From Haloterrigena turkmenica DSM 5511 (GTDB lineage Archaea; Halobacteriota; Halobacteria; Halobacteriales; Natrialbaceae): DNA of 64,000 bases. The stretch is taken from positions 1,426,001 to 1,490,000 of the forward strand of contig NC_013743.1 in assembly GCF_000025325.1 (NCBI RefSeq). Reading direction: 5' to 3'. The notes under the pieces were generated by a model, which made no database searches, was not told the DNA's origin, and saw only the letters and a list, made by a program, of their open reading frames with translations. Below, one piece after another: positions 10,594 through 13,755 of this stretch. The translations under genes and the position numbers were made by a program. Numbering within the stretch: the stretch's first letter is position 1; each line of letters opens with the position of its first letter.

Positions 10594-10929
10594 TCAGTTG
10601 CTCTGGCCGGCGCCGCGGATCTGCTCGACCTCGGCCTCGATGTGGACCGAATCGGGGAAGTTTTGCGAGGCGATGTTGCGTGCGAGGTTGTCGTGACCGT
10701 GAATCTCGAGTTCGCGGGTGAAGACGGTGTAGCTCCACGAGGAGAATCGTCGTTCGTCGTCGGCGTGGAGCCGGCAGTGCTGGGGAACGGAGTGTTTCTG
10801 CGGGGGATGAGAGTGGGGGCCTTTCAGCGCGGCGCCCTTTCGTTCGGCGGTCGATTTGATGTCGTCGACGATGGCGTCGAGCGCGGCGCGATCGCCGCTC
10901 TGGAGCGTGAGACGGGTCACGAAGGTCAT
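10594..10929 (-). CDS. Ribosomal protein uS10-like paralogue
   Basis: A 111-aa protein whose layout is that of uS10: an N-terminal beta strand (TFVTRLTLQSGD), a helix, the GPHSHPPQKHSVPQHC stretch that corresponds to the S10 loop, and a C-terminal strand. It differs from the main haloarchaeal S10, which lies next to EF-1 alpha, so it is a second copy of the kind annotated as uS10/mL48 family in haloarchaea. The start is ATG 10929. It might act in translation under particular conditions or have another RNA role. Whether it enters ribosomes is unknown. Confidence 0.8.
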   Translation of the reverse strand: MTFVTRLTLQSGDRAALDAIVDDIKSTAERKGAALKGPHSHPPQKHSVPQHCRLHADDERRFSSWSYTVFTRELEIHGHDNLARNIASQNFPDSVHIEAEVEQIRGAGQSN

Positions 10930-11156: not shown

Positions 11157-11591
11157 ATGGCAGTCGAAGCTACGAGCGCAGGCGCGATCCTCTTCCGCGA
11201 TACGCGGGGCCGGCGCGAGTATCTTCTACTCAAGAGCCGCCCAGGCGATTGGGAGTTTCCCAAGGGCGGTGTCGAAGGAGATGAAGAGCTACAGCAGACG
11301 GCGATCCGCGAAGTAAAGGAAGAGGCAGGTATCGAGCAGTTCCGGCTCCTCGACGGCTTTCGCGAGGACTACGACTACGTCTTCGAGGCGAACGGCAAGA
11401 CGATCCACAAGACCGTTCACCTCTTCGTGGCGAAGTCCTTCGAGGCGAGCGCGGAACTTTCAAACGAACATCGCGACCTCCAGTGGCGCGATTACGAACA
11501 GGCAGTGAACACCGTCACGCAGGACGGTCCTCGAGAGATCTTGGAGCAGGCCCACGATTTCCTCGACGAACGGGAGGAAGACGAAGAGTAG
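11157..11591 (+). CDS. Nudix hydrolase (Ap4A hydrolase-like)
   Basis: A 144-aa Nudix enzyme that cleaves nucleoside diphosphate-linked compounds. The Nudix box is complete: GGVEGDEELQQTAIREVKEEAGI, residues about 38-60, with the REVKEE metal ligands. The start AVEATSAGAILFRD and the WEFPKGG sequence before the box resemble archaeal/eukaryotic bis(5'-nucleosyl)-tetraphosphatases. The start is ATG 11157; the open frame runs further upstream without family similarity. A TTAACG/TTAGCC stretch at 11129-11149 suggests a nearby promoter. The C-terminal tail is very acidic. Confidence 0.9.
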   Translation: MAVEATSAGAILFRDTRGRREYLLLKSRPGDWEFPKGGVEGDEELQQTAIREVKEEAGIEQFRLLDGFREDYDYVFEANGKTIHKTVHLFVAKSFEASAELSNEHRDLQWRDYEQAVNTVTQDGPREILEQAHDFLDEREEDEE

Positions 11592-11704: not shown

Positions 11705-12757
11705 GTGGATCGGTACACGACCGAGTTCGCGTTCGAACTCCGGACCTGCCGCTGGGCGGAACGCGCCTGGCCGCCCGACGAGCCCGCCAGTGACGACCAC
11801 GCGTTCGTCGTCGCCCGACAGCTCGGCACGAAACGCCGCCGCTGGGACACCATCGTCCTCGAGTGCGACCCCGAAGCGCTCCGCGAGCGGGCGAACTTCG
11901 GCGCGGAACGCCTCGACGGCGACCTCCTGCACGTCGTCCGCAACGCCCCCGCCGAGTGGAGCTACTACCGCGATTGTCTCCCCCATCCCGGCTACCCGTG
12001 GCGCTATGTCCGCGAGGCCATCCATCGGGCCGACGACCGCGAGATCCTCGAGACTCGCAAGAACGGGAACCGCATCGAGATCCGCCGGAAGTGGCCGTAT
12101 CCCGACGACTGGGTCCGGCGAATCGTCGCGATCGAGAACAAGCCCGACTTAGACGCCAGTGCCGCCCGCGCGCTGGGGGCCCAACTCGAGTACGACGTCG
12201 CCGTCGGACTGGCCGACGAAGTCTGGGTCGCCACGCGGCGAACGGGCGACCCCGTCGAGCGCGCGCTGTTCGAGGATCTACCCGTCGAGGCAGGGATCCT
12301 CGCGCTCGAGCCCGAGACGCTCGCCGCCGAAGTCACGTGGTATCCCCGTTCGCTGGCCGTCGACGACCCCGGCACGCGGATTCTCGAGCGACCCGACGGC
12401 GGTCGCCGGGACGGCTCCGCGGCGCGGTTCGAGTACGTCGATCCGGACGCGAAGCGAGAGACGCGCCTCGAGATCGCCGAGCGCGCCTACGAACGCGGCT
12501 GGCGCTCGTTCGCCGACACCATGCGCCCCGACTGTCGGCACTTCGAGTTGCGCTCGCGGGACGGCCTGCAACTCGAGCCCTACTGCGCCGCGAAGGGCCG
12601 ATGCCAGACGGCCGCGGAGTGTTCCGGCGGCTGTGCCGAGTTCGAGCCTGAACCACCCGTCTGGCGGACTCGAGGGTGGCCGATCGAGGGCGGCCCCGGA
12701 AAACGGTGCAAACGGTTGCTCGAGGATCGGCGTCGACGGCACCGACCGGGACTGTAG
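11705..12757 (+). CDS. DUF5787 protein, predicted Fe-S cluster PD-(D/E)XK nuclease-like
   Basis: A 350-aa haloarchaeal protein that fits DUF5787. The GTG at 11705 is the start. Around residues 143-180 the sequence IVAIENKPDLDASAARALGAQ resembles motif III of PD-(D/E)XK nucleases: E-x-K on a strand, then a helix carrying Gln, then a strand VADEVWVA. Near the C-terminus there are five cysteines in a short span (Cys277, 294, 300, 306, 310; pattern C-x16-C-x5-C-x5-C-x3-C), as in the iron-sulfur staples of Cas4 and AddB-type nucleases. Family membership is fairly sure; the nuclease and Fe-S roles are my inference. No partner genes are adjacent. Confidence 0.72.
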   Translation: MDRYTTEFAFELRTCRWAERAWPPDEPASDDHAFVVARQLGTKRRRWDTIVLECDPEALRERANFGAERLDGDLLHVVRNAPAEWSYYRDCLPHPGYPWRYVREAIHRADDREILETRKNGNRIEIRRKWPYPDDWVRRIVAIENKPDLDASAARALGAQLEYDVAVGLADEVWVATRRTGDPVERALFEDLPVEAGILALEPETLAAEVTWYPRSLAVDDPGTRILERPDGGRRDGSAARFEYVDPDAKRETRLEIAERAYERGWRSFADTMRPDCRHFELRSRDGLQLEPYCAAKGRCQTAAECSGGCAEFEPEPPVWRTRGWPIEGGPGKRCKRLLEDRRRRHRPGL

Positions 12758-13251: not shown

Positions 13252-13755
13252 TTACTCGGAGCTCTCGACCTCGAGTTCCTCGCGGTCGACGGTCAGGCGG
13301 AACGTGGGGACGGTGCGGTACTCGACTTCGACGACGCCCTTGCGGCGCAGGCTCTGGAGCCCCGAGCGGACGTCCTCGGCCTCGGGATCGACGTCGAACT
13401 CCTCGCGGAGTTTGTGAAGGACCGAGACGACGCTTTCGGACTCCTCCTCGGGGCCGGCCAGCACGGCGACGATCTGCGTCTGGAGCTCCGGCACCCGAAT
13501 ACGGGAGGGGACGCCCTCGTCGTCGGGGTCGCTCTCGATGCCGGGTTCGACGTCGACGAGGTCGTTCGCTTCCGCCGTCGCGCGGATCAGACTGTTATCG
13601 TCCCGGAAGTAGTAGTCGCCCAGTTCGTTCTCGAGGTACTGGTGGACCTCGCTGCCGCTCTCCATGTCCCACCGCTCTTGCAGTTCCGAGTTCTTCGTCG
13701 GCTGTAGCTCCACCACGTCCGCCAACCGTTCTGTGGCCTCCTCCGAGAGCGTCAT
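13252..13755 (-). CDS. DUF5797 family protein (predicted winged-helix)
   Basis: A 167-aa acidic haloarchaeal protein fitting DUF5797. The N-terminal third (LSEEATERLADVVELQPTKNSELQERWDMESGSEVHQYLENEL) looks like a helix-turn-helix. The C-terminal part (TQIVAVLAGPEEESESVVSVLHKLREEF...RSGLQSLRRKGVVEVEYRTVPTFRLTV) looks like a second winged helix ending in the two-strand wing. This suggests a transcription regulator, but no target can be read from the neighbourhood. It is a single gene, convergent to the preceding intergenic region. Confidence 0.78.
   Translation of the reverse strand: MTLSEEATERLADVVELQPTKNSELQERWDMESGSEVHQYLENELGDYYFRDDNSLIRATAEANDLVDVEPGIESDPDDEGVPSRIRVPELQTQIVAVLAGPEEESESVVSVLHKLREEFDVDPEAEDVRSGLQSLRRKGVVEVEYRTVPTFRLTVDREELEVESSE

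Follow-up and report, generated by a model that had tools for sequence, protein, structure and literature searches.

We propose that the DUF5787 proteins are haloarchaeal metal-dependent DNA nucleases of the PD-(D/E)XK type and distant kin of the sce7726 proteins. Most haloarchaea keep them as two ancient paralogues, of which paralogue B would be placed by PCNA and paralogue A, the type encoded in the window, has no PIP box. (The window is the whole stretch of 64,000 nucleotides of Haloterrigena turkmenica DSM 5511 DNA that was analyzed.) We give this reading a probability of roughly 0.7, and we infer the fold, catalysis, substrate, metal, and PCNA binding from comparisons of sequences. The window gene (Table 1) probably encodes an undescribed nuclease.

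A broader version, for which we see about even odds, is that one ancient duplication gave the whole lineage a pair of nucleases, with B tethered to PCNA through a FEN1-like PIP box and A as its PCNA-independent partner, both built on an sce7726 core of the phage and plasmid type that is interrupted by an inserted domain and has a Cys4 site as its cap. If true, the A/B pair would be unrecognized core components of the haloarchaeal genome maintenance machinery. Such a nuclease candidate, near-universal in haloarchaea and with a FEN1-like PIP box on its sister copy, could be tested directly as an addition to the PCNA partners in Haloferax volcanii, a genetic model. Should the two proteins prove active, they would bring a nuclease into the repair network that a review of Hfx. 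volcanii (PMC7776575) describes through Hef, Hjc, NucS, Fen1, and UvrABC.

Table 1. Features of the DUF5787 gene and its neighbors in the window
Feature	Position	Strand	Remarks
Ribosomal_S10-family protein, small	10594..10929	-	Near A in 24/32 loci
NUDIX hydrolase	11157..11591	+	Upstream, same strand; in 24/32 A loci, immediately adjacent in 19
DUF5787 paralogue A, candidate PD-(D/E)XK nuclease, 350 aa	11705..12757	+	GTG start, stop included, frame unbroken
C15, N-terminal cysteine	11747..11749	+	142/147 (94/95 A, 48/52 B)
D48, candidate motif-II acid	11846..11848	+	147/147; on sce7726 motif-II Asp once insertion removed
Insertion of about 85 residues between motif-II and motif-III segments	11867..12115	+	Borders approximate; winged-helix-like pattern, weakly supported
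E144-N145-K146, motif III (E-x-K)	12134..12142	+	147/147, 147/147, 146/147
Q160-x3-D164	12182..12196	+	Invariant; Q160 aligns with invariant Gln of sce7726 proteins
C-terminal Cys4 domain	12518..12658	+	C277, C294, C306, C310 invariant; C300 variable; borders approximate
DUF5797 gene	13252..13755	-	Convergent, downstream; 25/32 A loci

Distribution of DUF5787 and its two paralogues

The original prediction had outlined an open reading frame with an E-x-K motif and clustered cysteines; its coordinates proved exact, and the E-x-K motif and four of the five cysteines are conserved in relatives. The window protein matches the Pfam family DUF5787 (PF19100) over profile positions 1 to 278 of 278 (E = 7.6e−123, 410.1 bits, against a cut-off of 25 bits). 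No match was found in NCBIfam at an E value of 1 (sce7726, NF033832, included) or among PDB sequences at an E value of 10, and the closest named relative found is a protein of Haloterrigena salina (93% identity). In a literature search, the term “DUF5787” occurred in no paper, and no biochemical or genetic study naming the family was found.

DUF5787 is present in 289 of the 292 genomes of the class, mostly with two matches per genome and in a few cases with one or three. In the two three-match genomes inspected (G026 and G045), the extra match arises because a single match was split into pieces within one open reading frame. The source genome has two matches, the window gene (410.6 bits) and a gene at C1:3544214-3545056 (345.1 bits), and the family is also carried by the genome of Haloferax volcanii. 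The three genomes of the class without DUF5787 (G021, G217, and G285) are small (1.9 to 2.3 Mb) and come from two families (f5 and f11). In a sample of the phylum, matches were found in 53 of 294 genomes, 52 of them in the order of the source genome (itself included). The 53rd, in G480 (E = 2.9e−4), is the only one outside that order and was rejected as a chance match to a zinc knuckle, which, judging by eye, we take to be that of methionyl-tRNA synthetase.

The 152 loci collected for the family yielded 147 distinct proteins, 95 of paralogue A and 52 of paralogue B. In a midpoint-rooted FastTree phylogeny of these proteins, each paralogue is monophyletic (node values of 0.875 and 1.0). A single duplication before the haloarchaeal radiation would explain this split into two clades, and we infer that the pair arose in this way. 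The second paralogue, which lies outside the window, is new relative to the original prediction.

Conservation of the candidate active site

Among the alignment columns shown, the residues invariant in all 147 proteins are E7, E11, E19, R38, Q39, G41, R45, D48, and R62 in the N-terminal part; Y132, P133, W136, E144, N145, P147, L149, L157, Q160, D164, T177, P193, and G197 in the middle; and R254, E259, R260, G265, W266, R267, C277, C294, C306, C310, and R321 in the C-terminal part. Because these residues are fixed even though the B proteins (20 rows, alignment A3) are only 29 to 38% identical to the window protein, their conservation cannot be attributed to chance. The acidic motif II and the (D/E)-x-K motif III that mark PD-(D/E)XK proteins are both conserved, D48 and E144 in 147/147 and K146 in 146/147. 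The E-x-K motif singled out in the original prediction therefore held up across the family, including its middle residue, N145 (147/147). By analogy with the superfamily, D48 and E144 would be the Mg2+ ligands, with K146 orienting the attacking water.

The sole exception at K146 is an Asn in one B protein (L092, 5929-6897), in which E-N-N stands in place of E-N-K. This protein is a possible natural catalytic variant.

A profile link to the sce7726 proteins

A lead to a named family came from paralogue B, of which 8 of the 25 members scanned weakly matched the NCBIfam model sce7726_fam (NF033832; best E = 0.012), short of its cut-off of 70 bits. Sequences of the sce7726 type were gathered from archaea, one viral contig, and named plasmid and phage records, and were compared with DUF5787 profiles by hhalign. 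Against 19 such proteins, the B profile reached a probability of 92.3% (score of 54.5), the combined A+B profile 86.1% (48.9), and the A profile alone 12.2% (30.3). When L306 and the archaeal f19 proteins were left out (14 rows), the values were 83.4% for B, 67.7% for A+B, and 1.1% for A, and the A profile gave 1.1 to 1.6% against the smaller row sets. With the four f19 proteins by themselves, the DUF5787 profiles stayed at or below 3.5% (B, 1.8%; A+B, 3.5%; A, 0.3%). As controls, 108 comparisons with 36 families of neighboring genes had a top score of 24.8, and column shuffles reached 21.4 for B (60 shuffles), 21.0 for A+B (50 shuffles), and 18.6 for A (50 shuffles). The score of A alone lies above all 50 of its shuffles and all 108 neighboring-family controls.

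In the alignments shown, the E-x-K of DUF5787 falls on the E-x-K of the sce7726 proteins and P-x3-G falls on P-x3-G or its neighbor. With the 19-row set, 69 to 74 columns are aligned in the B and A+B comparisons when the proteins are intact, and 85 to 89 when the insertion between the motifs (81 to 87 alignment columns) is removed. Removal of the insertion also brings the values to 94.4% (B), 92.2% (A+B), and 14.3% (A), and places D48 on the sce7726 motif-II Asp in the B and A+B alignments, the two shown. The sce7726 proteins, such as phage P4 cII (annotated as sce7726) and the Rac-SA53 CII-like protein, resemble DUF5787 in the aligned E-x-K, Gln, and P-x3-G, and their own invariant residues (12 rows) include D, E-x-K, and Q. 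They differ from DUF5787 in that, in these 12 rows, D and E-x-K stand about 12 residues apart, without an insertion and without invariant cysteines. In four bacterial plasmid loci (L314 to L317), an sce7725 gene comes directly after the sce7726 gene, which suggests a two-gene unit.

Direct comparisons of all six DUF5787 profiles with Cas4, AddB/RecB, NucS, Hjc, HSDR_N, and Mrr gave 0.0 to 0.4%, and these families were rejected as direct homologues. The rows compared came from 28 of 30 loci each for Cas4 and AddB/RecB and numbered 9 for NucS, 12 for Hjc, 15 for HSDR_N, and 18 for Mrr; the loci chosen for the last four families were 12 of 29, 15 of 17, 16 of 30, and 18 of 30, respectively, those of HSDR_N and Mrr being mostly the better-scoring ones. 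Because Hjc also scores low against the other PD-(D/E)XK profiles (0.2 to 5.1%), the direct nulls argue against close kinship and not against a shared fold. NucS/EndoMS (PF01939) has a direct profile similarity of 0.2 to 0.3%, and DUF5787 is further set apart from it by the insertion and the Cys4 domain.

The link from DUF5787 to a PD-(D/E)XK member of established structure runs through intermediates only, namely sce7726 (B, 83 to 94%; A alone, 1 to 14%), HSDR_N, and NucS. The step from sce7726 to HSDR_N is weak (20.3 to 51.0%, depending on the row set), and the sce7726 proteins had no link by hhalign to Cas4, AddB/RecB, NucS, Hjc, or Mrr (0.1 to 4.0%). The onward values are 86.6% for HSDR_N with NucS, 72.6% for NucS with AddB/RecB, 72.2% for NucS with Cas4, and 99.1% for AddB with Cas4. 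In searches of PDB sequences, the A+B profile had one match at an E value of 0.19 and the B profile none. The 14 PDB matches of the sce7726 profile (best E = 1.9e−4) were set aside as noise, the best ones being repeat proteins that match outside the E-x-K stretch. We regard the PD-(D/E)XK assignment as supported by the invariant motifs together with the transitive chain, whose first step appears strongest for B and which appears weakest for A alone and at the step from sce7726 to HSDR_N. Read as a nuclease of the PD-(D/E)XK kind, the nuclease part of the original prediction is supported by the invariant D48, E144, and Q160, the nearly invariant K146, and the link to sce7726.

The insertion and the predicted structures

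D48 and E144 are separated by 95 to 98 residues in A and 88 to 94 in B, compared with 12 between the sce7726 motifs (first row). When 10 fragments covering the insertion were searched against Pfam, two had matches, to PaaX (E = 0.021 and 0.15) and GntR (E = 0.12). Among 49 members searched against Pfam, PaaX, MarR_2, and AbiEi_4 were matched by 2, 1, and 1, respectively (best E, 0.06 to 0.19). In the model of fragment 1-215, the insertion has a helix at residues 99 to 109 and a hairpin at 114 to 129, with block-mean pLDDT of 52 to 73. The insertion resembles a winged helix and may be one, with weak support from Pfam.

The archaeal sce7726-like f19 proteins (L307, L308, L310, and L311) also have a large insertion, which contains cysteines, between the motif-II and E-x-K segments. 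Their C-terminal ends (GARQSTLKF, GRQKTFDD, GRQKTLF, and GKQSRLF) are PIP-box-like with non-canonical spacing, and these proteins are a possible parallel to DUF5787-B.

AlphaFold2 models, each made with three close sequences, are of low confidence (pLDDT of 34.0 for the full protein and 48.9 for fragment 1-215). The full-length model has a strand at residues 140 to 144, a helix at 151 to 166, and a strand at 172 to 177, as expected of a PD-(D/E)XK core, and the fragment model has a helix, not a strand, at the E-x-K (134 to 144), followed by a helix at 151 to 167 and a strand at 176 to 178. The helix and strand that the original prediction placed after the E-x-K are therefore seen, weakly, in both of these low-confidence models, but the E-x-K itself lies in a helix in one of them. 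With the low-confidence fragment model, Foldseek had no match at E ≤ 0.001, and the best VIA-align match was to a designed protein (Z = 5.0). Both models were set aside as evidence for the fold.

A PIP box at the C-terminus of paralogue B

Taking a C-terminal Qxx(L/I/M)xx(F/Y/W) as the mark of a PIP-box partner of PCNA, all 52 B proteins have the pattern QxxLxxF/Y/W within their last 20 residues, in 49 of them at most 3 residues from the end. The commonest form is QSGLDRF (18 proteins), accompanied by variants. Within 3 amino acids of the C-terminus, the motif occurs in none of the 95 A proteins. Of 762 other gene calls near the loci, 3 contain the pattern, one of which is a miscalled copy of B. 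As a control, all 25 haloarchaeal FEN1 proteins fit the pattern and end in QTGLDRWT or a close variant. FEN1 (XPG_I) belongs to a nuclease family other than that of DUF5787, and the nearly identical tail is the sole similarity seen between FEN1 and B. In a review of Hfx. volcanii (PMC7776575), the PIP box is given as QxxLxxFx, and Fen1 is listed among predicted PCNA partners.

Because its C-terminal PIP box is almost the same as the one in haloarchaeal FEN1, paralogue B probably binds PCNA. We consider this box, which ties DUF5787 to PCNA, to be the strongest new point of the analysis, and a role in repair is plausible chiefly on its account. According to a review (PMC4929162), archaeal PCNA partners beyond the conserved core form a much larger and partly uncharacterized set. 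B also resembles NucS/EndoMS, a RecB-family nuclease whose archaeal form is described there as having a C-terminal PIP motif (PMC4929162).

We suggest that PCNA would position B on DNA through the PIP box, in replication or repair, and that A, with no PIP box and an Arg-rich tail, would cut alone or through another partner. The insertion, perhaps a winged helix, and the C-terminal Cys4 metal site (zinc or Fe-S) may grip and orient the DNA.

Alternatively, the proteins may have kept the nuclease fold but act mainly in DNA binding, as scaffolds, or as antagonists competing for PCNA, with weak catalysis or none. B has a PIP box, and small proteins that bind PCNA can act as inhibitors, a role proposed for TIP (PMC4929162); the insertion may be DNA-binding; and one B member (L092) has Asn in place of the Lys of its E-x-K. 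We nevertheless find this explanation unlikely, given the invariance of D48 and E144 and the near-invariance of K146 in paralogues about 29 to 38% identical, and favor active nucleases.

The cysteines and the question of an Fe-S cluster

The original prediction drew attention to five clustered cysteines near the C-terminus, C277, C294, C300, C306, and C310; the window protein has further cysteines at C15, C54, C91, and C335. Four of the five are kept in 147/147 proteins, but C300 is Cys in 26/95 A and 0/52 B proteins and is therefore not a family feature. The spacing is C-x(14-27)-C-x11-C-x3-C in the 95 A proteins and C-x(12-18)-C-x(11-12)-C-x3-C in the 48 B proteins listed, out of 52. Such a self-contained Cys4 site could fit zinc or Fe-S.

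Nucleases of the Cas4, AddB, and RecB families (PF01930 and PF12705) likewise combine an E-x-K with a cysteine cluster. In the Cas4/AddB-type arrangement, the cluster has one N-terminal and three C-terminal Cys ligands. On this model, DUF5787 would be an Fe-S nuclease like Cas4, AddB, or Dna2, whose nuclease domain is closed by a 4Fe-4S cluster bound to C15 and three of the C-terminal cysteines. The widely conserved C15 does precede the nuclease core, the other cysteines follow it, and the E-x-K with its following Gln is present. However, the Cys4 pattern does not fit that of Cas4 and AddB, in which one ligand is N-terminal: here the invariant C-terminal cysteines number four, not three, and the five proteins with Ser or Ala in place of C15 (L079 of A; L058, L070, L257, and L301 of B) keep all four. 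The six DUF5787 profiles gave 0.0 to 0.2% against Cas4 and AddB/RecB by hhalign, compared with the 99.1% of the Cas4-AddB positive control, and DUF5787 showed no CRISPR or defense link. The Cas4/AddB-type cluster of the original prediction is not supported by these results, and we judge it improbable.

DUF7140, matched by 14 of 49 members with E values down to 4.7e−4, was set aside as a clue to function. This Cys domain of 42 residues forms the tail, or lies close to the C-terminal end, of a hydrophobic haloarchaeal protein that is probably membrane-bound and was found in 57 of 59 genomes (L154 to L173). The pattern C..HF..PYC..C is common to it and the DUF5787 Cys domain.

Gene neighborhood and the question of defense

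Neighbors were counted within about 6 kb of each locus, and the counts are lower bounds (loci L049 and L069 are badly called). Around B (28 loci), we found genes for eIF2-gamma, PIN, Spt4, and DUF359 (18/28 each), an Rpb7-N/S1 RNA-polymerase subunit (19/28), and a beta-lactamase-fold protein (18/28). The S10-family neighbor of A and the eIF2-gamma, Rpb7-N/S1, Spt4, and PIN neighbors of B are on the strand opposite to DUF5787 and are therefore not co-transcribed with it. A nuclease that acts on RNA in connection with translation or transcription, as these five frequent neighbors might suggest, is very improbable, since B's PIP box points to PCNA on DNA, all five lie on the other strand, and the 6 kb covered around the B gene of the source genome (L074) show no eIF2-gamma cluster.

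A link to defense, also raised in the original prediction, found no footing for the family that we read as DNA nucleases. No PADLOC model was matched by the window protein at an E value of 1, three of four relatives had weak matches (E, 0.0096 to 0.077), and two pattern-based scans of viral contigs found no relative. A viral origin was also set aside in view of these scans. Because the gene is near-universal in the class and has translation and transcription genes nearby, it looks like a housekeeping gene and not like a member of a defense island.
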